From Alitta virens (lineage: Eukaryota > Annelida > Polychaeta > Phyllodocida > Nereididae): a DNA stretch of 64,000 bases. The position numbers and the translations under genes were made by a program. The stretch is taken from assembly GCA_932294295.1 (NCBI GenBank), contig OW028580.1:38923836-38987835 (forward strand), written 5' to 3'. Positions within the stretch are counted from its first letter, which is position 1. Every line of letters starts with the position of its first letter. The notes beneath the pieces were generated by a model. That model saw only the letters and a program-made list of their open reading frames with translations, searched no databases and was not told where the DNA came from. This document shows positions 506 to 41,211 of the stretch, piece by piece.

Positions 506-1390
506 TGCCTAATTTAAATGGCAAATGCAAGGACAACATGCTCATTTGAAAGTTTCTCGAGCAGCTTGAAAAATCTTGTTAGCATTGGCCTCACATAAAC
601 TTGCATTTGTTCCATGGGAGATACTGCTGCTAAAAGGGAATACATTAATATACTCTTCCATTAAAACTATTGTAACTAAATAGATTTTGTATCGCATTTT
701 GCTTATTGGCAAAATATTTAAAAAAACTGATGTAAATCGCATTTAGTGTCATCTATTTGTACACTAAGCAGGGTTACAAAAGCTCTACCTAGATCATACG
801 CAGTAGCGAATGAGCTATAATGGGTACTGTTCTACTAGAGCAATACTGTAAATAAGGAAGTATATACTAAACTATCAATTCAGGATAGTTCTGAGATCAA
901 CATCAATTCTAAAATATACAAAATGTAAAACAAATACTGTATATATGTCTTCATCATACAGAGCACTCTTAATTCTAACCAAAATTTAAGTTTATGCTGT
1001 GCTTATTATCACGGGTAAATGTTCAATTTCTTTTTTTTTTATCTGAAAAAGGTCAAAGAGGCATTTGAAAGACAAGTGTTGTTTTCAGGTTCAAGAAATA
1101 TTCAGGTTCAAGAAATATTTATTCGAGTATAAAACAACAGATATACAAACTGACAAACTTGCACACAGACGCACAGTGCGTATTTTGTGTCTTGTTGACA
1201 ATGAATGAACAAAATTATTGCACTCACAATGCAATTTCCCCATGCTATATCATGCATCTTCTATTTGCTAACACATCTTTGCACCCTAATTACCTCAATC
1301 TCTCATTGTCTTCTTCAAACAAGGGTTCCTACATAATGTGCATATTTTTCATTTTAGCCATTTCAGGTAAATTTAAAGATAGGATGTTGC
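506..1390 (+). repeat. Block E1, outermost partial copy of the duplicated unit
   Basis: Bases 506-815 match 5345-5712 closely: a core running from the word ctcgagcagcttg through acataaacttgcatttgttc, followed by an AT-rich tail with the shared string agattttgta. A second part at about 1215-1390 matches 5765-5905 (a gatgcatctt word followed by accctaattac or accataattac). About 400 bases lie between the parts here and only 50 in E2, so E1 has gained sequence or E2 has lost it. The small reading frames inside are not shared in frame between copies. E1 is of the E2/E5 subtype. Confidence 0.7.
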
Positions 1391-1734
1391 ACCAGTCAGT
1401 CCAAAGATACTAGCTTTCTCATCTCTATATAATTTCACTTGATTATTGATACATTGTAAAACAGCTTCGTTTCTTTTTGCCGTATCTTATCAGTGACAGT
1501 TATCACATTTGAGGAGTCTCTTTCTTCCTTTCCTTCCCCTAAGTAGCCATATTATGTCTATATATGATTGTATTTAAAAGATTAAAAAAGGTAAAAGTCT
1601 GCCTCTTCATCTCTGACAGCAAATTAAACCATTAGAATCATAACAATACAAAAAACACCATTCAGGGTATGTCCAAGCTCTGAAACCTCCATTGTCCATC
1701 TCTAGCAGTCAAATCTGCCTATGTCTGATTTCTG

Positions 1735-2100
1735 CAATCGGTCTCTCTTTTCAGAATTAATTGCATCTGAAACCATACCCCTCTTGAGCTGCTGCTGCAG
1801 CAAAAGAAGGGGAAGAATAAAAGATGGAGAAGAATAAGTACTACCATCTTTTGCTTCTCGAGTAACAAAGAGAATTGTAGAGCTCTCATTATGCTTTGAT
1901 TCAGTGTGGCCAGTCCATCACGATACATCAAGGAGAGAGGTTCAGATTGCAATTTCAGTCTAATGCTACATGAAACACATTTCATAGAGTGAGGAGTATT
2001 ACAGGAAAAAGATGCATTAAATATACAGTATGTCGGAGACCTGTTTGATATATTGTCATCCTGAAATAGCTCCACACTTTGATGTGCTTTTTGTAACACA
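1735..2100 (-). repeat. Block H1 with a conserved open frame
   Basis: An inverted copy of 40785-41125, with a third shorter copy at 32668-32850. On the minus strand the three copies share an open frame around RLKLQSEPLSLMYRDG (H1), the same with one downstream change (H3) and RLKLQFESLLMMYHDE (H2). The larger length differences between copies keep the frame: H1 has 6 bases more than H3 just after the IMRA motif, and H2 lacks about 12 codons. The product is not recognised. It may be a decayed coding exon or a chance open frame in a repeat. Confidence 0.55.
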
Positions 2101-2457
2101 CCTAAAGATTGAACATACTAAATATGCATCTGCAGGTTTTTGGCACATTGTAGCGCTATAAGCACAGTTTCTCTGAAATTATATATATAATAGATATAGT
2201 ACATATATGAATCATCTCAAATAATAATTTAGTTAACCAAACATGGCTAATAATTTTGTTGCCTAAAACGAGAAGCAATTATACATTATTTCAACCTCAA
2301 ATTACAAGAGCAGTTTTGGTGGCCAAACATGTCATATATGTCCCATCCCATGTAAATAGGAATGACATAACTACGACCTTGTTTTAAACAGTGCTTCAGT
2401 ATGCCTCACAACCATTTAGTCATGAAAATGTTAGTGGCAAGCCCTATATTTACACCA
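2101..2457. other. Unassigned interval between blocks H1 and G1
   Basis: AT-rich sequence with a short TA run near 2180. Its counterpart in the right arm (about 40480-40780) has a similar length, but little base-level similarity was seen. Confidence 0.4.
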
Positions 2458-2655
2458 GTGAGTGGGCGTGGACTGACTGCATCTTGCTGGAGGCAGGTGG
2501 CGTGTCCACAGCCTACCAAGTTTTCACACCTATTTACTTGGTGGACATAGTGCTATGCAGCTATGTAAGGTCACAGTCCTGTCAGGGCTACATTGATCAG
2601 TTGCTCTTCTTTGATAAGCAGGCACACAGTATTGTCCTATCCCTCTCACATTTTA
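2458..2655 (+). repeat. Block G1
   Basis: One of four copies of a block of about 190 bp (others at 9178-9372, 17788-17952 and, inverted, 38763-38968). The shared core runs from ggcaggtggcgtgtcca through tttactt and acatagtgc to cctgtcagggctac and agttgctcttctt. G1 and G4 alone share the extra words gactgactgcat or gattgactgcat on the left and agtattgtc plus ctatccctctc on the right, so they form one subtype. No coding frame or Pol III box was recognised. Confidence 0.75.
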
Positions 2656-3052
2656 TAAACCAAATATGAAATTTTGCATATGAGGTTTAAAAACAATATT
2701 ATCTTCAGATATGGTACTGGAACATGTGTGATGTGTAATCAGCGCAGTTGCTTAAAGCATTGTTTCTCTCAACTATTTATCATTGGTCTTCCCACGATAA
2801 AATTATGGGGAGAAAGAGAACCAGATTCAATACTATGGTTATAGCAAATGGCATTATTGTTTATCTGAGGAAGTAAGTTTCCTATTTTGGAATGTAATAA
2901 ACAGTAATATATGTGCAAGCTCAGGCAGAATATAATCTTGACTAAAAATATAAGACAATTTTGCTCTAACAGCTTATTTGGCCAATGCACAAGGTCAAGG
3001 TCACCTGAAGCTCTTACTCCTTTCACCAGTGGAGTGTGTGGATTGTCTTTGT

Positions 3053-3283: not shown

Positions 3284-3284
3284 A

Positions 3285-3830
3285 CTCGCAGACTCCCTAA
3301 TCCTCAGTATATGAAATCTTTTATATATTTCATTGTGTATTGTGGCTAATAAATTGAATTGAATTGAGTCATGCACCGTCCCGATGAAAGGCGCCAGTGC
3401 TGTCCAGTCAAAAATGCCACTGTCAAAAAAGGCCACTGTCAAAAAGGCCACTGTCAGTCTTATTAGAATAGCCCTTTTTTTAGCACACCATTGAGAGTAA
3501 CTAAGCAGTCACACTCAGTTGCTAAACAGACATATCTGAGAACTGCAGGCATGTCTGGTAGTCACAAACCTCATTAGGGGATGAAGGAAGTCGTGTCAGC
3601 AAATGTGGAATATTCATTGGGGAAAGATCATTCGATTGAGGCCAAATGACTGAAATATGTGTCTCTATTCTCTGAGTCTCTCTAAATCACTATTAGTCAA
3701 TTTCGCTGAGATTGTGTCTTGCTTTCAGACCATTTCAGACCATTTCAGCTCAAGGTTAGACCGACTTCAAACAAGTAAGAGGCACAATGAATCAATTTGA
3801 TTGGACTTAAGAGACATAATCTGTCTATTA
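3285..3830 (+). repeat. Block I1
   Basis: Continuous similarity to the minus strand of 37995-38465, for example ctgcaggcatgtctggtagt against ccgcaggcatgtctggtagt, then gatgaaggaagtcgtgtca and ttggggaaagatcattcgat. A short insertion at about 3309-3357 ends in repeated attgaattga and looks like a truncated LINE tail. A 16-bp unit (ggccactgtcaaaaaa-like) is amplified three times at about 3406-3456 in this copy only. No open frame runs through. Confidence 0.75.
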
Positions 3831-3834
3831 GTTT

Positions 3835-4142
3835 TTACAGTGGTTGAGAAATTAGTTACTTGTGCCTTCTTAACCTTATTTCATGCTATGCTACAATGCT
3901 TCTTGTTTTACACAAGAATAATTACTCATCTTTAGGAGCTAGGAATGATATCCCGTCATTTGAATTAACTCGATCAATACCAATTGAGTCCCCTTTTTCC
4001 TCATTTCTCATGACCATTAGTCATAAAATTTCAAGCGCAAAGGCCCTGTTATTGATTCATCTAGCTCCATAAAGTGATGAACTAAATTTTTGCAGTGTTT
4101 GATGGAACTGCTCAATCATTGCCAAATTGCTGCCAAAGGTCA
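3835..4142 (+). repeat. Block J1
   Basis: Matches the minus strand of 36850-37160. The strongest parts are catttctcatgaccattagt and caatcattgccaaatt. I1 and J1 are contiguous here, while in the right arm a LINE fragment of about 750 bp lies between them. No function recognised. Confidence 0.7.
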
Positions 4143-5344
4143 TCTGACACATGCAAAGATTTGCAATTGTCAAGAAAAAAATTATTTATAATTCAAAAGC
4201 AGAATATTTAAAGCTTAGAATGTGATCCACCTAACAGGTTATGACCAATGACAAACATCATAGGCATGTATGATGCACACTGTAAATATACATCATAAAT
4301 CCTCCAAAAATGATTTGATGTTCTGGCTTTCTAGATGGTAGTCCATGAGAAATATATTATTATCATAAATATATATTTTTATAAGTATTACATATAATTA
4401 TGCATAATCATGACATGTGTTTGATTTTATGATTTATTTTATATGAATTTATTTTTTTCTTTGGCAGCTGAAGTTATTTCCTGGAGCTATGATATTATAT
4501 TCATCAGATACTGCACAACAACAAAAACTCTAAGGAATCAGTATATTCCACATGTTACATATACCTCGTCTTTTACAAGCCTCATATTTAAAGTCACACG
4601 CAACTGACATGAAACCATGGACATTCAACTGTCACTTGGCCACCCAGCTGTTGTTTGTATATACATTATCTATTGCTTAATGAAGCTACACAGCACATAG
4701 CAGTATATTTTCATCTCATTAGCTTCAAAGAAACATGTCTCTCTGAGGCAGACACAAGATCTTACGGAGAATGGAAACTGAAAGTCAGATCATGAAAGCT
4801 TGCCGGCGCAACTTTTAGATGTTCCTCTTTGCGAGGGGACCAAATATCCATCACCTAAAGTCAGCATGCTTTTATTATTGCTTGCACACTGGTCCACTGT
4901 ATGTCATCACCTCACAGCCCAGCGACCTAATTATGCACATGTTACGCTCATTTACTTATCTAAAGTCAATCAATCAATTTCTCTTATAGTCTATAGGCTG
5001 GCTTATGGTATTAAAGGTCTAAAAATGAAATTACAGAATAATTAGATGTTTATGTGCTGAGTTTATGCAATTTATGTTCTAGCATTGAGGCAATTCAGAA
5101 CAATTGCCTAAACTAAAAATAAAAATGAATCAGTTTCTCTTGTATTTTTAAGAGAAGATTTCTTAAGTCAATACACAGCCAATTGGCTACATAGTTTAAC
5201 CAATTATTTGTTTAACTAGGCAATCTAGCAAAAACTGTCCATAATAAGGTCCCTCGGCTGTGAGGTGATGACGCACAGTGTTTATGTAGTCTTTATACTT
5301 AAAGTCAGCCCAGAAAAGTTTGCAGTTGCAATTACTTTTTTTTA
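4143..5344. other. Unassigned interval between blocks J1 and E2
   Basis: About 1.2 kb, against about 500 bases between J2 and E5 in the right arm, so one arm has gained or lost sequence here. It is AT-rich with short frames only. No repeat family was matched. Confidence 0.4.
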
Positions 5345-5905
5345 CATGGCGAATGCAAGGACAACATGTTCATTTGAAAGTTTCTCGAGCAGCTTGGAAA
5401 ATCTTGTTAGCATTGGCCTCACATAAACTTGCATTTGTTCCATGGCAGATAATGATGTGTGGAAGTCTAATGGGTACTACGGGGACACTAAGCATGATGC
5501 CACTGCTAAAAGAAAGTACATTAATGTATTACTCCATTAAAATAATTGTATCTAAATAGATTTTGTAACGCACACTATTAAATACAGCATTTTGGTTATT
5601 GGCAAAATATAAAAAAAAAACTGAATGTAAATTGCATTCAGTTTCATCTATTAGTACACTAAGCATGGTTACAAAAGCTCTGCCAAGATTATACGCTGTA
5701 GCAAATGAGCTGTAAGATATGTACGTAACGTGTCATTGATAAATGGGTAAAAATTAGTGCATTCAAAAAGTAATTTCCTCATGAATTAATGATGCATCTT
5801 TCATTTACATACACTTCGTTGCACCATAATTACTTTCATTTGTCACTGTCTTCTTTCCAAAACAATGAATCCTTCGTAATTTGCATAATTTTCAATTTAA
5901 GATAA
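5345..5905 (+). repeat. Block E2
   Basis: The most complete copy of block E (others at 506, 12434 and, inverted, 31625 and 36160). The first part at 5345-5712 shares catttgaaagtttctcgagc with E1 and E5. The second part at 5765-5905 matches 1215-1390 and, weakly, 13330-13440. The frames of the copies disagree, which argues against a conserved protein. Confidence 0.75.
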
Positions 5906-5934
5906 AAAGAGAACAGACTACAAACAGTTAGTTT

Positions 5935-6239
5935 CACAAAATACGGTTGATTCTATACAGCTGTAGCCACCTATTCCTGGCTGTAGCTATAACTGGCTAA
6001 AAGCCATCCGCTTCTGTCTACTACTAGCTTACAGTCAGCTTACAGAAGGATTGAAAACCTTGGCAAATGTAAGAAATTTAATCTAATATATCATAAATAA
6101 GTACTTTTAGATTGGGGTTTGAGTAGCCAGCTGTGGCCGGACAGTTCTGTTTAGTGGCAGGTAGCATCATACAGCAGACAGAAGTTGTCTAGCTTTGTCT
6201 AGGTTCAATATGACAGGCCGTTTTTAATGAAACTAACTG
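5935..6239. mobile_element. MITE family F, copy 1
   Basis: About 305 bp beginning CAGTTAGTTTCA and ending in the exact complement TGAAACTAACTG. It shares internal words (attcctggctgtagct, gttctgtttagtggcaggta, tctagctttgtctaggttca) with 9838-10143 (inverted) and 10543-10879. It has no transposase frame, so it is a non-autonomous DNA transposon. The TA flank seen at the other two copies is not clear here. Confidence 0.85.
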
Positions 6240-6260
6240 GAAGCATCAGTTTTACCATTA

Positions 6261-6930
6261 TTAACATTCCTTCATTAAAAAGTCAATTAGATATAGAATT
6301 CCACAAACTTTCAATACTACACTAAACTTTTTAAAAAACAAAATTCTCACCCACAGCTTCAGACAGTTTTCCAAAATTACTAAAAACCATTTCCTGGAGT
6401 CATACAGCGATATATATATATCATAAGAAATTGCTTTATCTGCCAAACATAATTTGTCCTTAACATATTCTATAGTTATTTCATAAGTGCTAGCTCTGCT
6501 GGCTTGAGGGGTCTCCATCATAATTGCATCTTCTCATTTCATTTATACATTCTAAACTGTATTATTTATAATTATGAAAATAAATTGATCTAAATCTAAT
6601 CTAATCTTAACACCTTCCCCAATGAGTATGTACACTTAATGCAACTGTTCTGAAGCTGAGTCAGCTTCTATTGCCAGCTGCAGCAAGGATGCAGATGTAA
6701 TGATGTAATGATAATTCCCGATGTGACTATATAACACCAAGGATGGGGTCTTTACGTGCCAGAGAGCAAACCAAGGCTAAATTGCTAATTGGATGATGGC
6801 TAAGTTGCACTGCAAGTCACTCAGTCACTCATTAGCACGTTTATTTTTGGCAGTTTTTCAGTATTAGATAATGTACTATAATAACACGTCGCATCCATTT
6901 TGCCCAAAGAAATCATTAAGTTGATTGTTT
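6261..6930. other. Unassigned interval
   Basis: AT-rich with short frames on both strands (the longest is 86 codons on minus at 6261-6521, hydrophobic and of low complexity). No family similarity was noticed. Confidence 0.35.
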
Positions 6931-7339: not shown

Positions 7340-7690
7340 TTGTACTATGTTGCCTGCAAAGTTCTATGACACAGACCTCCTTTGCGAAACACGTTTACTG
7401 TACATGGCATGTTTTCTTTGTGGGTTGTATACATTTTTTGTCAACCAAAGTGACAGCATAAATATACAGTATACTGAATGTATAAGGCACAGCACGGTCA
7501 CTGACAGTTCTGACTTTGTGAGAATAGCTGCTTTTGAACATTACTCACAACTGAAGCCTAAAATGCTTACAGGCACGAACATACTTCTGAAGTCTACCCA
7601 AAGCCGAACAAAGGATGATAGATACCTTTGTATACACTAGATGATGTATAGCATACCACTAACGTCTGGTTTGAAAAGCTAACCGAAGAA
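7340..7690 (+). repeat. Block K1
   Basis: Matches the minus strand of 34030-34480, e.g. gctgcttttgaacattactc and cagtatac(t/a)gaat; a more diverged copy lies at 30110-30607. A 97-codon frame at 7347-7640 is not kept: relative to K3 there is a single-base indel near the agaatagctgc word. Read as non-coding repeat or decayed exon. Confidence 0.6.
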
Positions 7691-8001
7691 GCGTCTTTTC
7701 GTAGAGTCATGCATTGTTCGAAGACTTAGGTGTTGAAATCATTCTTTTTATGTACTTATCAATGAATGAAAGTTTTGACATAAATACACTGTTGTTTTAA
7801 AAACATTCATTACAAATGCATTGATGTCTAATCCCTGTTAAATGCTCGTACTTATCAGCAAAAGCAGTATGGCTCTAAAGCAGCTTCACAGAAATGGTGT
7901 TCTGGAGGTTCAAGCCGAGCTCGAGATTTACTGCTATGGATATAATGCAGCTTTAGTCTTTTGGCTCGCCTTTCAGTTTTTTCCCTTGTAGCTACTGCAT
8001 T

Positions 8002-8345
8002 GCATCAACAGGCTTAATATAGCAATTGAATCAGACTCATCCTCCCCTCTGGACGAGAATGATGGTGCTTACTGAGTGTCGACTTGGTGTCAGCCACTCT
8101 GACAAATTGACTGAGAGTCAGGTAGATCCTATGCACTCCAGAACGTGACAGTCTTACAGGAGAAGCACCAAGAATGTCTACTGGACACATCTGATGGACA
8201 TAGTCCACTCTTGGAGTCTAAACCCGAAGTAATTCAATAACAAGCTACCCCAGACTATGCCAGCGTGCCACTATGAAAATCAGGGCGGCATCTGCGCCTG
8301 ACAATTTTGGTCCAGACATATGGTTCAGGAAGCATAAAACTGAAT
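8002..8345 (+). repeat. Block D1
   Basis: One of four copies of a block of about 320 bp (13751, and inverted at 29158 and 33219). Shared words include caggcttaatat, gatggtgcttactga, ggtgtcagccactctgacaa and tgaattagc. D1 and D4 share specific features not found in D2 and D3 (gagaagcaccaagaatgtct against its complement at 33366-33385). Minus-strand frames in D1 and D4 both read VHRIYLTLSQFVRVADTK or a near match, but D2 and D3 do not keep it. Confidence 0.8.
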
Positions 8346-8632
8346 TAGCCTCAACTTACTGTGGGAGATAACTAGGCTATATGACTTGCAGACTGTCTTT
8401 GACTCCATAAAGTTGTCAGATTTTAAAGCAAAGAAGCTGCTTAGCTTCCTGATTTATTTCAAGTGTAGATTGTTTGCCAATTGTTATAACTTACATTGAA
8501 GATAAATCTATGCTGCAAACCCAAGGTTTGTAATGCGAGTATGTAACACTGATGTAACACTGATGTTATGCTGATGTAACACTTATGTAACTACTTGAAA
8601 TGTGTTCAAATTAGGCAATCAAAACACTGGTA

Positions 8633-9177: not shown

Positions 9178-9372
9178 ATGGGCAGACTGTATAGCACTAG
9201 AGCCAGGTGGCGTGTCCATGGAAGAAGAGGGTTTTCACACCTCTTTACTTGGAAGACATAGTGCCATGTAAGGCCACAGACCTGTCAGGACTACATTGAT
9301 AAGTTGCTCTTCTTGTCCGAGTGCCCATAAGCGGGGAGCCAGGTGGTACCGACCTCCTTCACCTTTTGCACT
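9178..9372 (+). repeat. Block G2
   Basis: Second copy of block G, sharing ccatgtaaggccacagacct and cattgataagttgctcttct with G3 at 17788. With G3 it also shares aggtggta and ctccttcacc at the right end, which G1 lacks. It marks the start of the partial second unit in the left arm. Confidence 0.75.
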
Positions 9373-10879: not shown

Positions 10880-10884
10880 TATAA

Positions 10885-11956: not shown

Positions 11957-12433
11957 GTCAATGTTTAAGATACTGAGCTAACGAAATCATAATTTAAAGC
12001 TATACTCATAGTAGATTGACCGGCATGAGCTCCATTTCAAAGATAAATGTACATAAAATACATATATCCGGATAAGGCATATATTCACTAATACTACAAA
12101 AAGGTGATGAATATCATCAACAGATCTAAGTTATGTATTCAAAATTTAAGCCACCAATGGTTGAATCTTGGATGAACTAGGTTCCATCCAAGGTTGAATC
12201 AAGACTATGGTAGGTTTACTAAATCTATAACTTGTGTCAATCTGACCATATAATCAAATTTCCATGATTATATGACTTGTTAATGTGTCCAGCAAGCATC
12301 ATAAATGCAACCATCTTGAAATGGCGTGTCATCAACTTTATCACAAACGAGATAAAAATCAGACCACCAACGCATTTGGCCACCATCTTTTTTGAAGCCT
12401 TGAAGGAAACAGCTTTTTAGTGTGTCTCAACGC

Positions 12434-12560
12434 AAGATGGCCAATTTTAAATGGCAGACGCAAGGCAGTGTGCTTATCCCAATGTAGCTCAAGCGGCTTG
12501 GAAAATCTTGTTAGTGTGGGTGCTGACATTAATTTGCGTTCATTCCACAGGAGGGTACGT
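12434..12560 (+). repeat. Block E3
   Basis: A shorter copy of E. It matches the inverted E4 at 31625-31820 better than E2: both have gaaggaaac(a)gc or aaggaaacaac, caagatggccaatttt or caagatggccaatttac, tgttagtgtggg, and an attcca(c)ag-like word. A 165-codon minus frame at 12359-12856 crosses its edge and is judged spurious. A decayed second part of E lies at about 13330-13440. Confidence 0.65.
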
Positions 12561-13750
12561 TGTATGAGAATATGATACACGAATATACTCGGGGGGAGCA
12601 AACTTGGAAAGAGTAATATCAGGTATATCATACAGGGAATTGACATATATTTTTCTCTAAAAGATAATACTGATACTAAAATTTTATTTTTGGCAACTTT
12701 CATTGACAAAGTTACATGCAAAATTGTACGTAAATACACATTTTGATATGATGTGAATTGGCAGAGTTCAAAATATTTAAAGTGAAACAAATTATATATA
12801 ATATAATATATTATAATAGAATAGAATTTTGATAAGAATATCATGGTAATATACAATAAAACTCATTCAGTATTGACAATTTAACCTTTAAACTCACCAC
12901 ACAGAGCAGCCAGAGGCATTATTCAATATATTAAACAGGATAGCACAATTTTTCAGTGCAATCAATGCACAAATGAAGGAACATGAAACAGAATCTTATT
13001 TAATATAAAGAAAATAAAATGTTTTATTAATATGATCACAAATGGTGTTACCATAAAATCTGGTTAAGAATGAAAATTACACAAATGGTTTGGCAAATGT
13101 ACAGTGCACACATGCATTGTCCAACTTTCGCATTTCCCATCCACATAATGGGAAATTACATTTGCAAATCTGCATAAAATGCAAATTTCATTCAGGCAAA
13201 TCCATTGTAATAACCGGGACGGTGTCAAAATGGGCAACAAGCACTTGCTGAGCAATGCACCACTGATTGATTAGTTATGAAGAAATTGCCAATCAATGAA
13301 TGATTAAATTTTCCAGAGAGTTTTTTCAATTTCAGAAGATGTTATTTTTCCTCATAATTACACTCATTTGTCCCTTTGCTGTCAATAAATAAGTGCCCCA
13401 AAGAATGATTGCAGCTTGGAAATTTGCCTCATTTACAAAAATGAAAATGGCAAGGTGTTGAATTTTCTATAGGCCTGCTTAGCAGATCATAATATGTATT
13501 GTTTGTATCAAGCAACATGCAGAATTAATATGTGCAGCAGAATGATAAAATATTATAAAAATGCAGATGTTAGGGAAGGTTCCTTTTTCTAATAAAAATG
13601 AAACAGTTGTTGGAATCTTGTGCATACACAAGATGCTACATCATCACATACGAGCTTTTACTTGAAATGCCATTATTACGGTAAAAGGAAAAAAATGCCA
13701 TTGTGGTCTTTGCCTTTATGGTCTTTTCCCATAAGAGCAACTAAACTGCA

Positions 13751-14072
13751 ACAACAGGCTTAATATTGCAATTGAATCAGGCTAATCTTGCTTTTACCAA
13801 CAGAAAAGATGGTGCTTACTGCCAGTCGACTCGGTGTCAGCCACTTTGACAAATTGACACAGAGCCACAGAAAATCCTATGCACTTCAGGACGTGACAGT
13901 GTTGCTAAACCACCTTCCACGGGACAGATTCTTTTGGATACTGTCCTCTCCACCAGCAATTTAATAATGTTCCAGCCCAGATTGGGCATACCAAAATCAG
14001 GGCAGCATCCTGCACAAGCCTCTTCGGGCTCAGACGTATGGTTGAGGCACACGAAACTGAATTAGCTGCAAT
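13751..14072 (+). repeat. Block D2
   Basis: Second D copy in the left arm. Its closest relative is the inverted D3 at 29158-29478: both share the gcttaatattgcaattg or caattgcaatattaagc word, cacttcaggacgtgacag or its complement, the caccagcaatttaataatgt segment and the agcccagatt segment. This pairing, rather than with neighbouring D1, is evidence about duplication order. Confidence 0.8.
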
Positions 14073-14074
14073 TA

Positions 14075-15460
14075 TCATGTGCGATGGCTGGGGTCTTTTA
14101 GGGTTTTAAGCATTTATTGCATCTGTTCATCTGTGACATTAATTTATGGCTTCTGGAGGAAAGATAATTGCATGATATCAGCCTAACTGTAACATTTAGT
14201 ATAATTAGATCTTTTTACTGAAAAATCGTGGGGCATTATGTTCCTTTTAAAATTATTATAGATTATCTCAGTAAACTTCACTTGGAGTTTTTCGTGATTG
14301 CATGCATGAGTAGTGAAAATTAAATCTTGCCTTTTTGATATTATTATTATTATTTATTAATAATAGTCATTATCGCAGTGATTACATTTGCAACAAGCAA
14401 GAAATACTTATGATGTATTAGTCTATAACTGCTTTTTGAAAGTTGTTGCCTTGAGCCGTCTGAAGACAAAAGATTCTGCTTGAAGCCATAACTATCTGTA
14501 CGTATCCTCATCTGTCTCTAGATATCACTTGGCCTACCAATATGTTAATCTGTCAATGAAATAATGTGCAAATTGGTTATTATTAGATGCAAGGGTATAT
14601 ACTGCATATATGATAGGTTTTTAAAGGGTTTTTGTATCCGGATTAATTCAGTAACCGGCACCTTGAGGCATCAGTGTGGGTCCAGCTAAATTAAGCTTTT
14701 TAATAGATGCAGTTTTTAAAATGTTGTACTGTACATTGTTGCTAGGTTGCCATAAACAATAGTGACAATAGCTACAAATTGCATACTTAAGCTGTCATAA
14801 GAGACAGCAATCAAACTTGCACACAGAAGTGCCTTTCTACAGAGTCAATTTTAGCCATTTAGAATGATTGGCCATTACCAACCTTCGTCCATTTCCTGTT
14901 GTTCATGCCTTTGGAAGAACAAATTTCATGGGCCTCAAAGTAGGAGACTCATTCACTATGAAGACCACCCTGCAAGAAAACATTTACTGGGAGGTGGTCT
15001 TAAAATAGCTTGGTTATTGTGCCTCGAGAAAGAAAAATGGATTATGCTTTTTATCATTTCAATGAGACAAATGTAATTTTTGCAGACAAGCAAACAAACA
15101 AGTTTTTGGCTTGTTAATTATATGTTTAATCAGTAAAATTGACATATAATATACAAGTATAGAAAGACAAAATGTGTTAAGTAACACAATGAAAAGTATA
15201 TATGGAGATGTTGGTACACAACAAAAGTGTTTACGTAAAATTGTCTAGACTATGAAAAACAAGATGTAAATCAAATGTACAATCAAGTAAATAAGTGAGA
15301 TCTAGTTCTAGAACATGATGCAAGGTACCATGTTTAGATATATCATTTAAACAGTGGGTCCAAAATTAGGCAATTGTTGGTGGTCTAAAATTGAGGTAGT
15401 CTTTACAGTAGTATACTTGGATGACATTTACAGTTTTGAAAGACATCCCATGGATGGTTT
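14075..15460. other. Unassigned interval, left end of the central spacer
   Basis: About 1.4 kb of AT-rich DNA. A 70-codon frame at 14864-15076 has no recognisable domain. No repeat ends were found. Confidence 0.4.
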
Positions 15461-17430: not shown

Positions 17431-17787
17431 TGTCGTAGTGTTCCGCAGTGTAGATCTGTATTTTACTACTTCCTTGTACATCCTGGGATTATCAGCATCC
17501 GGGTACTTTTAGAGATTGGAAATGACGAATGATTAAAACGAAGTCAAGTATACTGCTGGAGTTTATTTTCATTATTGGAAGCATATGAAAATACAATTGG
17601 GTGAATATTATAATGCGCAGACTTCTAGGCCACTCAGGCACTAAATATAATGACAAAAGTTTGGTGAATTGACTGATATACCATTCTTCAATACCAGTTA
17701 CAAGCTTTAAGAATTCCAGACATGTTGAAGAGAAAGGCAAATTGATTTTCACCACGCGAGAACAGCGAAGCTGACTTCATAGCACAG

Positions 17788-17952
17788 CAGGCAGGTGGCG
17801 TGTCCACGGCCAACCAGAGTTTTCACACCTCTTTACTGGGAGACGTAGTGCCATGTAAGGCCACAGACCTGTCAGGGCTACATTGATAAGTTGCTCTTCT
17901 TCCCCGATGCCAATAAGCAGGCAGGCAGGTGGTATTTCCCTCCTTCACCCGG
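17788..17952 (+). repeat. Block G3
   Basis: Third plus-strand copy of block G and the only one outside the two arms. It shares aggcaggtggcgtgtccacg and ccatgtaaggccacagacct, and its right end agrees with G2. Its presence in the spacer may mean a further unit once existed here. Confidence 0.7.
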
Positions 17953-18426: not shown

Positions 18427-18449
18427 TCCTATAATTTATTTTACTGCTA

Positions 18450-19214: not shown

Positions 19215-19774
19215 AATGCTAAATTAAAAGAATTATGGAAATTTGTTAATTAACACGAACAATATCTTACCAAATGCCAAAAAACTCTTCATCTAAAAGG
19301 CTACAACACTCAAATTACAATTTCTACCATTCTTAATAGACTTCTGTCTCATAAGACAGTGTCCTGGAAACTAATTACACATTTTCGTGACTTGTCAAGC
19401 ATTTTCTATCTTTTAAACCTACTCAATCAGTGCCAATTACCGAGTTAAACTAGTTTTTGTTTCCAAACTAACATCACTTGTCATTATTTGTAATAAAAAT
19501 CTAGCGAGTTCAGATGCCATTGAGGCTTCAGTGGGTTTAATGAAGCTGCATTAGCCCAAAGATTGAATTCAATAAAATGTTGGCAATCAATGGCAAGTTA
19601 CTTGGAGCAGTAAATTCCAAATGTTACTGGCTTACAGAAAAATCATGCAACGATGTGAGCTAATCTTGAAATATTTCTCAAGAAGTTGTGTTTTGTTTTA
19701 ACTGGAGCTAAACCAGTTCTCAAATGATAAACAAATATATTATTGCAAAACTTGCCTTGAAACCAACAGTCATT
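19215..19774. other. Unassigned interval
   Basis: AT-rich, with no frame or family similarity noticed between the partial element L and SINE-A copy 3. Confidence 0.4.
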
Positions 19775-28815: not shown

Positions 28816-29157
28816 TGCCTCAATCTTCATTATCATTTTCTTAAATATTTAAAGTAAAAAACAAAGGGAACTTGATAATGTTCCATCTTTGACTGAAAAA
28901 AAGGAGGAAAAAATCAATTGGCAGATTCTTCATTGCTTATGAAACACATTACCATATGAAAAAACAGAATAAAAAGAAACTTACTTAATTGATATCATAA
29001 TGTTAAAAATAACCTAGCGATTATGAGCAGCTAGTGTCTCACATTATGAAATTAATGTTTACCCTCAGCTACAGAAGCAAGAAGGCAGTCATGAAGAATC
29101 TGATTGACATACACTTGTAAAACCCCATAAAGAACCAAACTGTCACTCATGACAAAT

Positions 29158-29478
29158 CGAGGCTAATTCAGTTTTGCATTTCTCAACCATACGTCTGAGC
29201 CCAAAGTGGCTTGTACAGATACTGCCCTGATTTTGAGATGCTCAATCTGGGCTGGAACATTATTAAATTGCTGGTGGAGAGGACCGTATCCAAAGGAATC
29301 CGTCTTGTGAAAGGCGTTTTAGCAAGGATGTCACGTCCTGAAGTGTATAGGATTTTCTGTGACTCTGTGTCAATTTGTCAAAGTGGCTGACACCGAGTCG
29401 ACACTCAGTAAGCACCATCTTTTCTACTGCGGAGAGCAAGATTAGTTGGATCCAATTGCAATATTAAGCCTGATGATC
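29158..29478 (-). repeat. Block D3
   Basis: Inverted copy of D, closest to D2 (ctggaacattattaaattgc here against its complement in D2). It is the innermost block of the right arm and so pairs with D2, the innermost block of the left arm. Confidence 0.8.
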
Positions 29479-30109
29479 TAGTTCTATAGGTCTAAAGAAA
29501 CAGTTGAAAGGGTAAATTCAGAGGCTGAAATTGCCACTTTTCTCCAACTGATAATATTACCTGTTCATTAGCAAAGTGATGCAACACTTGTGTGTGACTT
29601 TATCATGAAAGTCTGTCATATCTAGTATATGGAACAAAAAGCGAATTATTATTGTGCTCATTAGATCAATTTCTAAACTTAAATGTGGAAAATACAGTAT
29701 GTGCTACGTGTCATTATATATATAGCAACTATGTTAACTTTTGCTATAATTAGACGATAATCTGAAAATCTGTGTGGAATGGTTTTATGTGGATTTTGAA
29801 GTATTAGGAAATATCAGCTGTGGAATTTAAGTAATTAAATTCTTATAAACAACTTAAAAAGAACGTAGATCTATTGTTGTACATTGAGGACACATAAAAA
29901 GCAGCTCATTTCATTTAAGAACACACCACAACAGGCTTAATCAAAAGAAGTCCTTAAATATATTGAAATTAGCCACAGCCTGTTTATTGTATATCAGACG
30001 TGATTCCAATTTTGAAGTATTTAAAAAAACAAAAGTGTGCCACAAAGTCAGTAGGCCTAATGAAGCTTTTGGCTCACACAGAATCTCACACATTACATTG
30101 TGTATTTCT

Positions 30110-30607
30110 CATTTTCTGCAAGTCATATAGACTCTTCTGTACAAAAGTGTGGATGAATATTTATATTTCAGACTTTAGCTATGAGTAATTTTCCAAAGCA
30201 TACACTCTGAACTGAAATACATCCACAGTCATAATGGTTTGCTTTGTATTTTCTGCAGCTGCAGATGACAAGAAAATGACAAGTAGGACACCAGAAAAGA
30301 CTGCACTGCAAAATATGTTTTGGAAATGTCTTGTGCCTCCAAGAAAAAAATGATGATTACACTGACTTGGAATATGAGCAAAATGAGATGTAGAACAGAA
30401 AATGTCAAAGTATGAATGGAAATATGGGGAAACATGATACAAAGTCATGAAAAGGAAAACAAAATGATGTATGTGAGTGATGTAAAGTTTCAAATGATGA
30501 TTGAGATTTATACAGAAATAGATGCAGCTGTTGAAAACACAATATAGTTTTGTAAGTTTTAGAAAGAAATAACAAAAGAAACTAATTCTTGTACATTTTG
30601 AGACCAA
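30110..30607 (-). repeat. Block K2 with local direct repeat
   Basis: A diverged K copy. Its edge at 30121-30195 (gtcatatagactcttctgta, caaaagtgtg, cagactttagctatgagtaa) is repeated almost exactly at 30853-30936. A 142-codon minus frame at 30179-30607 is AT-rich, hydrophobic and unlike any family I recognise, and K1 and K3 do not keep it. I do not call it a gene. Confidence 0.55.
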
Positions 30608-30936: not shown

Positions 30937-30947
30937 AATATATATCT

Positions 30948-31624: not shown

Positions 31625-31820
31625 ATGTCCCTGTGGTACACAATTAGATTTTCGTACATCATTATCTACTGTAGAACAAAATGCAAGTTTATGAGACTCC
31701 CACACTAACAAGATTTTCCAAGCTGCCTGAGGAGCATTGGAATGAGCTGGATGTCCTTGTGTCTGCCTTGTAAATTGGCCATCTTGCACGCAGGAACACC
31801 GACAAGTTGTTTCCTTCAAG
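31625..31820 (-). repeat. Block E4
   Basis: Inverted E copy of the E3 subtype (gccaatttacaaggcagaca read on minus, tgttagtgtggg). It also retains the gataatgatgtacg and accacagggac words that match E2's gataatgatgtgtg and ctacggggac. Confidence 0.7.
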
Positions 31821-32667
31821 GCTTTGCGCAGACCACTACTTCCATGTGTTAGTGATCTGATTTTTATTTGGCGCAAGCAGAGGTTTATGTGTCTCTTAAA
31901 GATGTTTGTAAAGGGTAATGCTTACCTTGCATGCAGATTGTTTTATGTGTGTTTTGCTCTTGTGTGCATAGTATCTTTGACGCTATGGCAATGGCTATAT
32001 TTATATGCTGACACACACCATATGAAAGATGCTCGTAAGCAATCTTTCTTCAACTCACTATATTGCTTGCCCAGTATGAAGCTATGATAATATTGTGTAA
32101 GCAAAGAATTCAATTGCTGTTACTCATCTTTTCGTGTCTGCATTATTTTGATCTCGTTTGATGGGATGATCCACAGTATGCATAGAAGATACAAAGATTG
32201 AATAGAAAAACAAAATTCAAAAGTCTTCAAATATACAGAATCTCATTGCTCATTCTCCCTTATTATGAAAGCCTTGAGAAGTACATTCCATCACCTGCAC
32301 ATTAAGTACAGTCTTTCCTAAGCAAATTAGTCTATACAAATTTCCAAATGCATCTGATTTTTCATCCGACGAACACCGTAAGTTAAAATCTATGATATAT
32401 GAACACAGAATACTTTTAAGTTTCCTTTATTGCTATAATATAAGGCGAATGACTTCACTCAAAGTAACTCATGGAAGTACAGCTTTATTCCAAATATAAG
32501 GCGAATGTGCTGATGTGAATATCTTTTCTACGTAAAGAAAATAATGTGCTTCAATTAGAGCTGCATGTCTAATGTCCTATATAGCATCTAAGTATAAAAT
32601 GGAAGTCTTAATCAGGCTAATGAAATATATAATGCATATTTTCTTTTGAAGACTTTCAAAGTCTCTC

Positions 32668-32850
32668 ATGTAGAATTAGACTAAAATTGCAATTTGAATC
32701 CCTGCTCATGATGTATCATGATGAAGTGGCCAGGGAGAATCAAAGAAGAATTGTTGAAAAGCAAAAGTTGGTGGTACTTTTCATCCCCATCTTTTGCTGC
32801 AGAAGCAACCCCAGTGTGTAGGCCCAGTAGGGTTAAGAGTAAACCCTCAT
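32668..32850 (+). repeat. Block H2, short copy
   Basis: Same orientation as H3. Shared words are attagactaaaattgcaat, gatgtatc(g/a)tgatg and cccatcttttgctgcag. The plus frame RLKLQFESLLMMYHDE then VVLFIPIFCC lines up with H1 and H3 after in-frame gaps. It starts the inner partial unit of the right arm. Confidence 0.65.
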
Positions 32851-33218: not shown

Positions 33219-33535
33219 CGCTAATTCAGTTTTATGCTCCTTGAACCATATGTCTGAGCCAAAATAGTCTGGCGCAGATGCTGCCCTGATTTTCATAGTG
33301 GCACAGTCTGGGGTAGCTTGTTATTGAATTACACCAGGATCGGACGATGTCCATCAGATGTGTCCAGTAGACATTCTTGGTGCTTCTCCTGTAAGACTGT
33401 CACGTTCTGGGTGTATAGGATCTACCTGACTCTCAGTCAATTTGTCAGAGTGGCTGACACCAAGTTGACACTCAGTAAACACCATCTTTTCTATTCCAGA
33501 AAGGCAAACTAGCCAGATTCAATGACATTTTCAAG
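33219..33535 (-). repeat. Block D4
   Basis: Inverted D copy of the D1 subtype, e.g. gtgtccagtagacattcttg and ggtgcttctcctgtaagact, both present as complements in D1. The plus frame at 33318-33512 and the D1 minus frame share YRIYLTLSQFVRVADTK or a near match, then LTLSKHH or STLSKHH. No domain recognised. Confidence 0.8.
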
Positions 33536-34029
33536 CCTGCTAATTAGATGTGGTGGCTCCCAGAAAAAATCTGAGAATAAACATCACAGGGCTAAATGAT
33601 TTCAAAAGTTTCAGTTTCTTTAAACCTTTGCCTCTTTTAGTTAAATGTATACATATATATGACGAATCCTTCACATTTATATATCGTTGAAAATGTCGTG
33701 GTTACCAAACTATGTTGGTGTGCCCATTTCCAGATAATGCCAGATTGCCATTTTCGTGGTATTTAGCTTGTGTATAGAAAAACATGAGTTTGAAAATGTT
33801 TTCTTTTGTGAAATTTTCTTTTTGCTGTTGCCATGGTGATGAATGTTCTCTTTAGAATCAAAATGGCTTCTTGACTTGGGATGGAATTTTATTCCGCAGC
33901 AGAGCTATGTCAGCAGAAAATAAAGGGCTAAGTCTGATCTTCGTCATTTCAAATTTGTGCTCGATTCATCAGAAAATGAGTAGGGTTGTATCATTGTCAG
34001 CTTTGAGAACCAGGCTTTCATTGCATGCA

Positions 34030-34480
34030 ACATATAATATCCTTTGTACCACAATGTAGAGATGAGAACTATGTATCTATTGGATGTAGGTGTACATTGG
34101 TGTGTCTGTAAGCATTTCAGGCTTCAGCCGTGAGTAATGTTCAAAAGCAGCTATTCTGACTAAAATCAGAACTGTCAGAGTCCACATTTTGCCTTATATA
34201 TTCTGTATACTGTATAGTTTGTGTGTTGTTGTGGTTGACAGAGAAAATACAAATGGCTACAGAGAAAACTTGTCTTGTGCGCCAAAATGTGTTTTTAAAG
34301 GGCCTCTGTGTCCACAAACTCCACACAGAGAATCCTGCACAATCTTCAGTGAATGGCAGAACATTTAGTGACACAAAGAATAGCGAATGAAAACACGCAT
34401 CAAGGGAAAAACAGACGAAAAACAGGGAATGACGAAAAACAGAGTGCATACCAGTAATGGAAAAGTACAAAGTAACAAAT
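34030..34480 (-). repeat. Block K3
   Basis: Inverted K copy, closest to K1 (gtgagtaatgttcaaaagca then gctattctgac; cctta and attctgtatactg). Part of it forms a 109-codon minus frame (34141-34470) that is frameshifted relative to K1. Confidence 0.65.
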
Positions 34481-35808: not shown

Positions 35809-36159
35809 AAATTCAGGATATGATTTCTTATATTTCAATTTACTGACGCAATAATTCAAATACATTTATTAATTTGCAATAATTACTTATTTAATTTGTT
35901 GAATCGATTACATGAAATAAATAATACATATATATTGATATGTGATATTTCAGTACACATTAGAATATTTATTATATCCACTGCATTAACTCAAATTTTC
36001 TATTCATAGTAAGACTCAATGGAAACTCTTTCAGAATATTAACCCACCAAATTTCTAGAGATTCCTTTCTTTTATTTTGGAACTGAGAAGAAAAGAAAAT
36101 GCCTTGTGTTAACTACTTCCATTAACCAGTGCTGGCATGCACAGCATGCAATGGTACCC

Positions 36160-36330
36160 ATTAAACTCCCACACATCATTATCTGCCATGGAACAAATGC
36201 AAGTTATGTGAGGTCAATGCTAACAAGATTTTCCAAGCTGCTCGAGAAACTTTCAAATGAACACGTTGTCCTCACTTTTGACATGTAAATTGGGCATCTT
36301 GCTCAGAGGAGTAACAAACAGTTCTGTTTC
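36160..36330 (-). repeat. Block E5
   Basis: Inverted E copy of the E2 subtype: gctgctcgagaaactttcaa, taacaagattttccaagctg, ccatggaacaaatgcaagtt are complements of E2 words. Confidence 0.75.
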
Positions 36331-36849: not shown

Positions 36850-37160
36850 TTTATGGCAGTAATTTGGCAATGATTGATCAAGTTTCATCAAACATTCCAA
36901 AAAATTCAGTTCATCAATTCATCTGAGTTAGAGGATTCAACGACAGGTTCCTATCACATGAAAATTTATGACTAATGGTCATGAGAAATGAAGGTTTGAG
37001 GCAAAAAAGAGATGGCAATTGCTCTTGATCAAGTGATTTCAAATGATGGAAAATGATCCATAAGTCATTTAGATGACAAATTAGTATTTTACCAAAAGAA
37101 GAATGGCATCATTGCATGACAAAAACTAGTGATAAAAACTTAGGAAACTTGGCTATTACA
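36850..37160 (-). repeat. Block J2
   Basis: Complement of J1, clearest at gactaatggtcatgagaaat and gcagtaatttggcaatgatt, weaker towards 37160. Confidence 0.7.
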
Positions 37161-37164: not shown

Positions 37165-37930
37165 TGATAATTTAAATTTTATCCTATCATATTGGTACTC
37201 CTTAGTGTGATGGATGCAATTAAGTGAACAAAACCTATCTTTATATTTTTTAATTATGTATTACTTCAAAAAAGACACCAAGACAGTGTGTCATTGATTT
37301 ATCTAAAAACATATTTTGACTGGATGCATAATCTGTAGAACAGTTTTTCATGTGGTCCAGTAAAGGCAAAATTCACAATGAAACCAATGGTTAAAATAAC
37401 AATTAACAGAAATATTTTTGACATGAGCTTTAAAAACATCACACGAAGCACTCTCATTTTGGCTGGTAAGTCATTCCACACAACGGAGCTCCTATATATA
37501 AATGAATTTTTCATAACATTTCTTCCACATTCAGGCATTTGAACTTTAAGAGTATTACTTGCTCGTGTATTAATGTCATTACATTCACAGGCCATGGCGA
37601 TTGAGTTACATAGATAATCTGGTGCATTGCCATGAATACTATTGTACCTTAAAGTTGCTAAATAATAATCAATTCTTTGTGACACAGTTTGTCATTCGAA
37701 ATTTGTCATCATTACATTTGCCTATGATACCTGCTACATAAGTAGACCAATTAAATAATCATAAGTAGTAATTTACATTGTATGAGACAGCAAAAATATA
37801 AGTAAATAGCACCAATATTCCAGCGCTAAGGCAGTTAATACTGATTGATACACCACAACGCAGATTTCTAGTCACACGAGTCTACAAAGAAGACATCAAA
37901 CAACAGAAGATAAAGTACTGGTCTTGAAAC
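37165..37930 (-). pseudogene. Non-LTR retrotransposon fragment, RT C-terminal region
   Basis: The minus frame at 37299-37685 reads HGNAPDYLCNSI, later NTLKVQMPECGRNVMKNSFI, then YRSSVVWNDLPAKMR. This is the usual ORF2 C-terminal order of non-LTR elements: an APxYL motif, basic and polar stretch, SFxxRxxxxWNxLP (family knowledge). The insertion splits the J and I blocks, which are contiguous in the left arm, so its rough limits come from that comparison. It is strongly 5'-truncated and inactive. The clade (CR1, L2, Jockey or other) cannot be decided. Confidence 0.8.
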
Positions 37931-37994
37931 AAATCTCTCTACTATTGTTAACAACTGACATGTCCATTAAGTCTGGAACTCTTGACTTCAAGTG

Positions 37995-38465
37995 ATACAT
38001 TGGGTCTCTTGTTTGTCTGAAGTCGGTCTAACCTTAAGCTGGAACTGTCTGAGAAAAAGGACAACCTCTGTGGAATTGACTTACAGAGACTTACAGAGAC
38101 TTATAGAGACTTACAGAGACTTACAGAGACTTAGAGAATACAGCCACATATTTCAGTCTTTTGGCCTCAATCGAATGATCTTTCCCCAATGAATATTCCA
38201 CATTTGTTGACACGACTTCCTTCATCCCAAGTGAGTTCTGTGACTACCAGACATGCCTGCGGTTCTCTGATACGTCTGTATTGCTACTGGATATGACTGC
38301 TTAGCTACACCGAATGCTGGACCACCAAAAGGGCTATTGTTATGTGACTGACAACAGTCTTTCAACTGGACAACATCACTGCCTTTCAGCCAGAATGTGC
38401 ATGACTCAATTTGAATACTGCAGATTAGAAAGTCTGCAAGTTTTGCTACTAATCTAATGACAATG
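37995..38465 (-). repeat. Block I2 with a local 10-bp tandem expansion
   Basis: Complement of I1 over its whole length. At about 38079-38130 the unit acttacagag is repeated five times where I1 has only tctctaaatc-like sequence. The minus frame at 38222-38470 includes LVAKLADFLICSIQIESCTF then WLKGSDVVQL. This loosely recalls an RNase H-like segment of LTR retroelement pol, but I1 does not keep it open and I do not rely on it. Confidence 0.7.
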
Positions 38466-38762
38466 TACATTCACACACTCTGGTGAATAAGAAGTAATAA
38501 CAAAATAATGAACCAGGATGTAACACATTATAAGGCCAGACCACAGCTTCATATCTGAGAGACAAGACGATATTCTATGTGAGTTTGCACAATTATTTAA
38601 ATTTTTCAAAATTTCATCTTGGTAATATTGCTTAGAAGAATGTCATTTGTTACATCCAGTACATTGAGGCTATTTCCTCTTTAATTGAAATTTTTTTTTT
38701 TAAACATTGCATTTACAACAGTGCTAACAACATATGTAAGATTGGGAACTGGCTAGTTTAAA

Positions 38763-38968
38763 TGGGAGAGGGATAGGAAGACAATACTGTTTGCCTACCC
38801 ACTTATCGGCATCGGGGAAGACAAGCAACTCACCATTGTAGCCCTGACAGGTTTGTGGCCTTACATGGCACTATGTCTTCCAAGTAAATAGGTTTGAAAA
38901 CTCTGGTTGGCTGTTGGTTGGCTGTGGACATGGCACCTGCCTCTAGTGCTATGCAGTCAATCCACATT
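38763..38968 (-). repeat. Block G4
   Basis: Inverted copy of G, subtype of G1. A local duplication (the word ggttggctgt occurs twice in a row at about 38905-38927) is found only here. Confidence 0.75.
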
Positions 38969-39175
38969 CACTTCAAGGTGTAACTATAGGGCGCAGACCA
39001 ATGATGCAGCTTTTGATCTCAGCATTGCAGTGATACTTGCGTTTCACCTCGGCCATATTGCATTTGTATCGATAGGATGGATGACCTATTAAGTTTTCCA
39101 TCCATTACTAACAATCTAATTGGCTAACAATTGGGTACAAAGTGATATTTAAAGGCTTTACGGACTAAAGGATGC

Positions 39176-39207
39176 ACAGATTGGTTTATTTTTTTGCCCA
39201 GAAGTGT
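39176..39207. mobile_element. Right-end-like fragment of a Tc1-type element
   Basis: The sequence ttggtttatttttttgccc then agaagtgtaca resembles, in the same orientation, the right end of the following element (ttggctcattttttttgtcc, aaaagtgta at 40450-40477). An inverted copy would be expected at a left end, so this looks like the right end of another copy abutting the element. Confidence 0.5.
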
Positions 39208-40477
39208 ACATATATTTGGGCAGACTAGTAGAGCACTCTAAGAAAGGGTAATGCTAGCAAGTGCCAACCTGAGTGCCAGAGAGATAATAACCGTTATTTA
39301 TGTATAATAAACTCTTTCTTATGACAAACTGAAGACAAGATGATAGAATGACAAAAAAAAAAAAAATTGTGGCATGCCAGGGTGGCATGACATATGGAAA
39401 CATTCATAAGTTGCTGAGAAGTGAGAAAATACCAGTGTCACTGACGACAATAAAGAAAATTGGTCTGCAATTCATGACCACAGGGTCCATTCAACAGCAA
39501 AGGGGGTCTGGAAGATCAAAGGTGACCACCGAAAAAGATAACAGGCGTCTCAAATTTGCTGTGTTAAAGGACAGGATAAAGTCCATCAAAACTTGGCACA
39601 GGAGGTCATCACTGCTAGCGGTAACAAGGTTTCAAGACAGACCACAAGCAATGATTAGCAGAAGGCAATCACAATAGGGTTTTTGTGCCAACAAGCCACT
39701 CCTATCCAAAAAGAACATCAGGGATAGGCTGCGTTTCCATTCGGAGTATGGTAATCTTGATGAAGAGTGGATTGATAAGGTCATCTGGAGTGATGAATCT
39801 CTGTTCATATTGTTCTCTGATGCTCCCGAACATTGCATAAGACGGTCCCAATGAAAGATTTCACCCTGACTGTATTTCCAGTACAGTCAAGCATAGTGGA
39901 GGTGGAATCATGGTCTGAGCTGCCTTCTCAAGTGCTGGCATTGGTGAGCTTATCTGATGTGATCTGAAGTCTGTAAATGCAGCCGAATACTTGAAAATTT
40001 TGAAGAAAGGCCTTCTCCCTTCTATCAGGAAACTTTTCCCTGGTGAAAACAATAAAAGTGTAGTATTCCAGCATGATAATGCTCCTGCTCACACAGCAAA
40101 TATTAGAAGATTAGAAGTCTATTACTTCCATGTTTTGGCAGGAACAAAGTCCGGATTTAAATCCAATAGAGAACCTGTGGGCCTACATGGAGGGCAAACT
40201 AACTGGACAGCAACACAGAGGAGCTTTGAAAAGCAGTGAAATTTGAGTGGGAAAATGTATACATTCACAGGTGATTAAGGCTCACTGAAAGTGTGGCGAA
40301 AAGACTAACTCTTTTTGAAAAAGCCAAAGGAAAAGCCATCCCCTTATAAATTTAAGCTGTTGTTGTGTGATACATAACAATATAACGCAACATGGTTCTG
40401 TATTTTGTGCAGAAATTAAGCAACATTAAAATGACATGAAATTCTGACTTGGCTCATTTTTTTTGTCCAAAAGTGTA
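39205..40477 (+). mobile_element. Tc1/mariner-type DNA transposon, broken
   Basis: The element splits the H3-G4 interval of the right arm; in the left arm H1 and G1 are only about 350 bases apart. The right end stops at gtccaaaagtgTA (40477), where TA would be the target site. The left terminus is not clearly the complement of the right: the best candidate is tacatatatttgggca at about 39205, which is heavily diverged. It carries the transposase pseudogene described separately. Confidence 0.8.
39348..40346 (+). pseudogene. Tc1-type DD34E transposase, frameshifted
   Basis: The N-terminal part (39348 on) shows the helix-turn-helix region with GNIHKLLRSEKIPVSLTTIK and RGSGRSKVTT, the typical linker between the two DNA-binding halves. 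The catalytic core follows in other frames: first Asp in VIWSDESLF (about 39787), second Asp in VVFQHDNAPAHTA (about 40061-40098), Glu in SPDLNPIENLWAYMEGKL (about 40150-40200, after a frameshift). The catalytic triad is still legible, but stops and at least three frame changes make it inactive. Family: Tc1/mariner, DD34E (established motif). Confidence 0.93.
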
Positions 40478-40784
40478 CGTTTCTGAATATTTGTATCTAA
40501 TTATTAACTATGTTTGTTCAAATATATGAATTGCATATGAAGTATGTATTGCGTAATGAGCAGCAAATAAAAGTGTCTCAAGTCTGTGTGACGAACAGGG
40601 ACAGTATTTTTTATTGTGGCTTTTGGTTAATAAACGAACATACTAGAAATTGATTTAATTGTAACTACATATTGCTCCAGACGGACATATATTTTACACA
40701 GTTGTTGAATCAGTTTTATCACGGCTATATCTTACATTTTTTTAAATGTAAATCTTACACTTAGAAAACTTCAGGTGTTTTGCA

Positions 40785-41125
40785 AAAAGCACATCAAAGT
40801 GTGGAGCTATTTCAGGATGACAATATATCAAACAGGTCTCCGACATACTTAAGGTATATTTAATGCATCATTTTCTTGTAAAGCTTTTTACTCTATATGA
40901 ATGTGTTTCATGTAGCATTAGACTAAAATTGCAATCCGAACCTCTCTCCTTGATGTATCGTGATGGAGTGGCCACATTGAATCAAAGCATAATGAGAGCA
41001 TTCTCTTTGTTACTCAAGAAGCAAAAGATGGCAGTACTTATTCTTCCCCATCTTTCATTCTTCCCCATCTTTTGCTGCAGCCGCAACTCAAGAGGGGTAC
41101 GGTTTCAGATGCAATTAAGTCTGAA
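40785..41125 (+). repeat. Block H3
   Basis: Near-complement of H1, and the longest strongly conserved pair between the arms. The plus frame at 40863-41129 shares CVSCSIRLKLQSEPLSLMYR, NQSIMRA and LKKQKM or LEKQKM with H1. A duplicated attcttccccatctt word at 41040-41070 adds bases in frame. It is the outer limit of the right arm. Confidence 0.75.
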
Positions 41126-41211
41126 ATGAGAGACAGGCAAAGATGGGAGAAATGCAAAAAGGCATAGAGACCATGCGACGGACAGAGCGACATACAGTGC
41201 CACAGGCGGAT

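Follow-up and report, generated by a model that had tools for sequence, protein, structure and literature searches.

A 64,000-nucleotide stretch of the genome of the polychaete Alitta virens (contig OW028580.1, positions 38,923,836 to 38,987,835 of the forward strand; hereafter the window, with a G+C content of 36%) carries seven short blocks, named H, G, I, J, E, K and D, that occur in this order at 1.7–8.3 kb on the plus strand and again at 41.1–33.2 kb on the minus strand. The copies are inverted and collinear, the D and E blocks show an order of duplication events, the blocks give no convincing coding signal, and they contrast with the DNA around them. The reading that we favour, to which we give about an even chance, is that a noncoding module was duplicated locally long ago, and that its blocks are held by purifying selection and act as cis-regulatory DNA.

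The common block order had been described in a first-pass annotation of this DNA, and self-comparison of the window bears it out, with all seven outer pairs inverted and collinear (its E pair spans 5341–5477 and 36289–36154). Together with a sensitive arm-versus-arm comparison, it gives a collinear order on opposite strands, as for an inverted segmental duplication. The annotation had also described an incomplete inner series in each arm, which self-comparison recovers for E3/E4 (12395–12540 and 31824–31680) and D2/D3 and profiles recover for H2 (32817–32613), G2 and a third K. A search of the window with block profiles (cut-off E ≤ 0.05) finds four copies of D, five of E, four of G, three each of H, J and K, and two of I, as follows, with the newly found block M:

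422..998, plus: E1 with a downstream extension, an extra copy outside the outer unit (arm comparison, profile)
1236..1374, plus: M1, newly found, pairing with M2 (nhmmer E 5e-35, profile from M1 and M2)
1741..2110, plus: H1, outer left unit (self-comparison, profile)
2441..2653, plus: G1, outer left unit (self-comparison, profile)
3452..3797, plus: I1, outer left unit (self-comparison, profile)
3881..4135, plus: J1, outer left unit (self-comparison, profile)
5341..5477, plus: E2 core, outer left unit (self-comparison, profile)
5777..5919, plus: M2, behind E2, pairing with M1
7368..7576, plus: K1, outer left unit (self-comparison, profile)
7973..8349, plus: D1, outer left unit (self-comparison, tree)
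9179..9367, plus: G2, inner left series (profile)
12395..12555, plus: E3, inner left series (self-comparison, profile)
13744..14108, plus: D2, inner left series (self-comparison, tree)
17771..17949, plus: G3, further partial series on the left (profile)
19368..19659, plus: J3, a weak third J ~1.6 kb behind G3 (profile E 2e-7; 51% identity to J1 and J2)
29118..29483, minus: D3, inner right series (self-comparison, tree)
30165..30344, minus: K3, a weak third K, inner right series (profile E 9e-8; 56–63% identity), probably the K2 of the first-pass annotation
31656..31824, minus: E4, inner right series (self-comparison, profile)
32577..32817, minus: H2, inner right series (arm comparison, profile)
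33220..33574, minus: D4, outer right unit (self-comparison, tree)
34102..34312, minus: K4, outer right unit (self-comparison, profile)
36154..36309, minus: E5, outer right unit (self-comparison, profile)
36854..37119, minus: J2, outer right unit (self-comparison, profile)
37990..38353, minus: I2, outer right unit (self-comparison, profile)
38760..38992, minus: G4, outer right unit (self-comparison, profile)
40766..41134, minus: H3, outer right unit (self-comparison, profile)

The order of the seven blocks is one of 5040 possible arrangements, with orientation still uncounted. Comparing the left arm with the inverted right arm yielded 18 matches at E ≤ 1e-3. At the same settings the direct orientation gave three matches, two of them covering a family that resembles short interspersed nuclear elements (SINEs), and reversed-only and complement-only comparisons of the arms gave none. 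A 15.3-kb control stretch (43.1–58.4 kb), compared on both strands, gave eight matches, all of which fall on the two SINE-like sites at 7.1 and 15.5 kb in the left arm. The block arrangement is therefore far above chance. Around the axis that had been placed near 21.5 kb, 16.5–21.5 kb aligns with 21.6–27.0 kb no better than 40 shuffles do, so the axis is a midpoint only. The outer ends of the inverted array are now ~39 kb apart.

In what order did the copies arise? The earlier proposal was a tandem duplication followed by inverted copying of the pair, which would join D1 with D4 and D2 with D3, and the D tree does so with 100% bootstrap support (200 replicates). Identities agree, at 86% for D1–D4 and 85% for D2–D3 against 71–72% for the other four D pairs. 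The E tree separates E1, E2 and E5 from E3 and E4 (97%), so that the proposed E subtypes find support in the tree; in raw identity E3–E4 has no advantage over E2–E4. Each of H, J and K is present three times and so offers no topology to test; we compared identities instead, which are 93% for H1–H3 against 72% for H1–H2 and H3–H2, 75% for J1–J2 against 51% for the J3 pairs, and 74% for K1–K4 against 56–63% for the K3 pairs. The D and E trees require a tandem duplication that preceded the inverted copying, and with H, J and K in agreement this order is supported. G is undecided between alignments: the proposed pairing of G1 with G4 is the lowest of all G pairs in the multiple alignment (72%; tree bootstrap 51%), whereas aligned pairwise the two are each other's best partners, at 84% over 177 bases with 39 gap columns (G2–G3 85%, G3–G4 82%, the other three 75–79%). 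The argument for the order of events thus rests on D, E, H, J and K.

Both proposed rounds are supported in this way, but as a history they are incomplete. G3 and J3, at 17.8–19.7 kb, both lie on the plus strand in unit order, and at 0.4–1.4 kb E1 stands outside H1 and is followed by M1, the same succession as at E2 and M2. These copies show that there were more rounds: the left side gained one or more additional partial series, and E was duplicated once more together with M. Profile search of the window found no right-hand counterpart of G3 or J3.

The blocks change more slowly than neighbouring sequence, as judged from paralogs only and with some similarity kept beside I and in a few of the stretches between blocks. 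In 30-base windows, H1/H3, E2/E5 and D1/D4 are mostly 90–100% identical inside the block and 27–65% on either side. Identity of 90–100% is reached inside H, I, E and D, whereas J, K and G attain it in single windows only; the edges of H, E and D are sharp, and J and K stand at 75–78% with blurred edges. For the DNA between and beyond the blocks, a first test, whose gap costs made longer stretches score higher, put only G-I clearly above shuffles. It was replaced by a comparison of 11 stretches with 100 shuffles each, in which H-G and G-I exceed all shuffles, I-J equals the best, and eight of the 11 fall within range. The arms are thus not alike throughout, as only a recent inverted duplication should be, which we read as reflecting the age of the duplication. 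The seven outer pairs, though of one duplication, differ in identity from 75 to 93% (chi2 52.2, 6 df, p 1.7e-9). Finally, E1 and E2 mismatch at 6 of 113 positions in the core (5%) and at 29 of 195 in the flank (15%; the flank aligns at 85%; Fisher p 0.014), a modest contrast whose core/flank boundary was set by eye after the alignment had been seen. From the block windows set against flanks near shuffles, the unequal pair identities and the E1/E2 contrast, we infer that the islands were held by purifying selection.

We considered whether the blocks code for protein, but neither translating D, E, H and G in all six frames nor computing ratios of nonsynonymous to synonymous change (dN/dS) over the seven blocks gave a convincing coding signature. 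Copies of D, E, H and G differ by gaps that are not multiples of three, no frame through H, I, J, K or D is stop-free in both copies, and for D, E, H and G most pairs show changes spread evenly over the three phases. Pfam searches of 10 frames gave matches in five, all below the curated cut-off, and no gene was recognised in those frames. The earlier statement that no protein family explains the unit therefore stands for the translations, dN/dS, Pfam on the 10 frames and one protein search. A comparison of D1 with a phage collection gave no match, as expected. Stop-free frames occur in the short G and E only, and the blocks appear to be noncoding.

These observations would fit the following sequence of events. 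A noncoding module of ~6.6 kb with at least seven short functional blocks would have undergone tandem duplication, after which an inverted copy of the resulting array arose. Most interblock DNA would since have diverged to near the level of unrelated sequence, with the blocks kept in several copies by purifying selection. The blocks would most likely be cis-regulatory DNA in the form of clustered enhancer-like elements, whose target gene may be present in the window without being recognised or may lie outside it. Enhancer-like elements often work in either orientation, so an inverted copy could stay active. Selection as the cause and a regulatory role are our inferences, and we favour regulatory DNA over exons or a noncoding transcript, the latter because neither splice bounds nor a fold were found. 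A broader reading, possible but less likely than not, is a regulatory or noncoding-RNA locus of several parts, with no recognised gene, whose elements would evolve together: whole modules of at least seven elements would have been multiplied in tandem and as mirror images, and their copies kept under selection long after drift wiped out most of the DNA between the elements.

Several points weigh against selected regulatory duplicates. No target gene is visible in the window, and "conserved" here refers to paralogs inside one window. The flanks are not wholly erased: the E-K, K-D and after-D2 stretches, although among the eight within shuffles, lie ~2–3 standard deviations above the shuffle mean, the flanks of I keep 57–77% identity, and a gapped 58% match bridges I to E (3443–5524). 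E3–E4 (75–77%) is no closer than E2–E4 (77%) in raw identity, though the tree groups the former, and the subtype pairing of G hinges on the alignment method. Besides the stop-free frames in G and E, E2/E5 has a dN/dS of 0.31, over 37 codons, which we judge too few to count. Changes between E4 and E5 are uneven by phase (4, 15 and 15; p 0.03, one of many pairs), in a pattern unlike that of coding sequence, for which a single high phase, an excess at third codon positions, is expected. Gene conversion between the arms could also keep the islands alike.

Possible, but on balance improbable, is that a noncoding-RNA gene underwent the tandem and inverted duplications and that the blocks are its exons, conserved in primary sequence and not in fold. 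Their size of ~130–370 bases and their fixed order suit exons, H1 and H3 share an acceptor-like, pyrimidine-rich CAG at the block edge (1753), and D1 and D4 share a donor-like CAG/GTAGAT at 8122, inside D. However, by simple consensus scoring none of 10 block pairs has an acceptor at the 5' edge and a donor at the 3' edge on one strand in both copies. No shared RNA fold emerged among 21 block copies folded on both strands, and nothing in the whole window reached an Rfam gathering score. Only H1 has z-scores below −4 (−4.1 and −5.0), and as its strong structure is absent from the folds of H3 (−1.7 and −1.6) and H2 (−0.7 and 0.3), we do not take H1 to be a conserved RNA. Within E an inverted repeat was spotted by eye, but its fold is no more stable than those of shuffled sequences.

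The main alternative to selection, which we think unlikely, is that arm-to-arm gene conversion kept the islands alike without any function of their own. Inverted arms are a known setting for gene conversion, which would likewise yield subtype pairing across the axis, and the sharp edges of H, E and D suit it. Yet E1 and E2, which are in tandem, are as alike (94%) as E2 and E5 across the axis (94%), J and K reach only 75–78% with blurred edges, and conversion would need repeated events on the same short stretches with their neighbours spared.

We doubt still more that the blocks are pieces, lined up by chance, of dispersed repeats unrelated to one another or of a single large and old family of transposons. 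G, with four copies, a tree that does not settle their pairing and copy G3 outside the paired series, would allow this, and 6554–6714, seemingly paired across the arms, does belong to a dispersed family. Against it, seven blocks share order and orientation, and dead transposon copies should decay evenly along their length. Moreover, the sole block-profile match in the window beyond 41.2 kb is a marginal one for block E at 61432–61521 (E 0.0098), whereas the SINE-like family spans the window.

That the arms carry duplicated protein-coding genes, now pseudogenes, is highly improbable: an open frame of 132 codons on the minus strand at H1, one of 102 codons at H3 and sub-cut-off Pfam scores for LCE6A (H1 frame) and TssN (a frame over K4) speak for it, but a search of ~5.8 billion proteins, which yielded 11 candidates, gave the H1 frame no relative at E ≤ 10, the frame has a dN/dS of 0.82 with three stops counted over both copies, gaps break the frame in D, E, H and G, and pseudogenes should leave no islands at 90–100%.

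The window holds further repeats. The dispersed SINE-like family, a contrast to the local blocks, lies at 7130–7312, 15546–15727, 19794–19964, 21964–22081, 34960–35141, 46945–47089, 57158–56997 and 58296–58151; its tRNA-like head was read by eye, and ARAGORN lists no tRNA. Upstream of two of its copies, 15056–15545 and 34464–34959 are similar in direct orientation (~63% over 727 alignment columns including the SINE). A second dispersed family with a tRNA-like head, again by eye, is found at 28685–28836, 30945–31252, 52292–52580 and 58497–58801. A local repeat of up to 690 bases has three copies, at 5880–6561, 9541–10190 (minus strand) and 10463–11075, the pair at 9.5–11.1 kb facing each other in inverted orientation; the one match listed in the right arm is partial and direct, linking 6397–6781 with a place near 30.7–31.1 kb. 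An imperfect palindrome of ~200 bases (74%) at 11756–11958, which Rfam matches weakly to mir-2513 (37 bits against a gathering score of 89), is probably a hairpin-forming repeat. Palindromes of one family lie at 18448–18586 and 60484–60637 (79% and 95% self-complementary), with 8631–8737 related, and a 50-base unit in fourteen tandem copies (95% matches) occupies 42342–43040, just outside the outer right unit. Insertions unique to one arm had been labelled as Tc1 and as long interspersed nuclear elements (LINEs), labels that no family match confirms. The minus-strand open frame at 37302–37691, LINE-like by eye, has two relatives in ENA (65 and 71% identity) and no reverse-transcriptase match in Pfam.

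Palindromic segmental duplications with arm-to-arm conversion consist of two inverted arms around a spacer, an arrangement that the present array shares. Recent palindromes are alike over the whole arm, whereas here it is mainly islands that are alike, and two stretches within 14.4–28.8 kb do not exceed shuffles. Narrow phrase searches of the open-licence literature returned no papers joining conserved noncoding elements (CNEs) with tandem, inverted or enhancer duplication, which does not establish that none exist. Should the blocks be regulatory, 42 kb would hold two to five diverged copies of each element, an internal comparison that could mark functional bases without a second species, and it would be shown that noncoding modules of several elements can duplicate locally and persist as sets. 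PMC4008492 sets out a model in which segmental or whole-genome duplication is followed by the loss of most duplicated CNEs, with simulations that remove 80–100%, and also cites work finding segmental duplications depleted in ultraconserved elements. The incomplete inner series and the lone G3 and J3 resemble such partial loss; unlike in that model as given there, both arms here retain the complete set of seven outer-unit blocks. Closest in kind are the duplicated CNEs (dCNEs) of vertebrates, which, in PMC2781166, are noncoding elements in more than one paralogous copy per genome, thought to be regulatory: 256 human-Fugu elements were duplicated and kept near paralogous genes, and about two thirds predate an early vertebrate whole-genome duplication. 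Our copies differ from these in lying in tandem and inverted within 42 kb, in having no paralogous genes recognised in the window (10 frames scanned), and in that their conservation is judged from paralogs. Local duplication of a module would thus contrast with the dCNEs, which PMC2781166 traces largely to before a whole-genome duplication.

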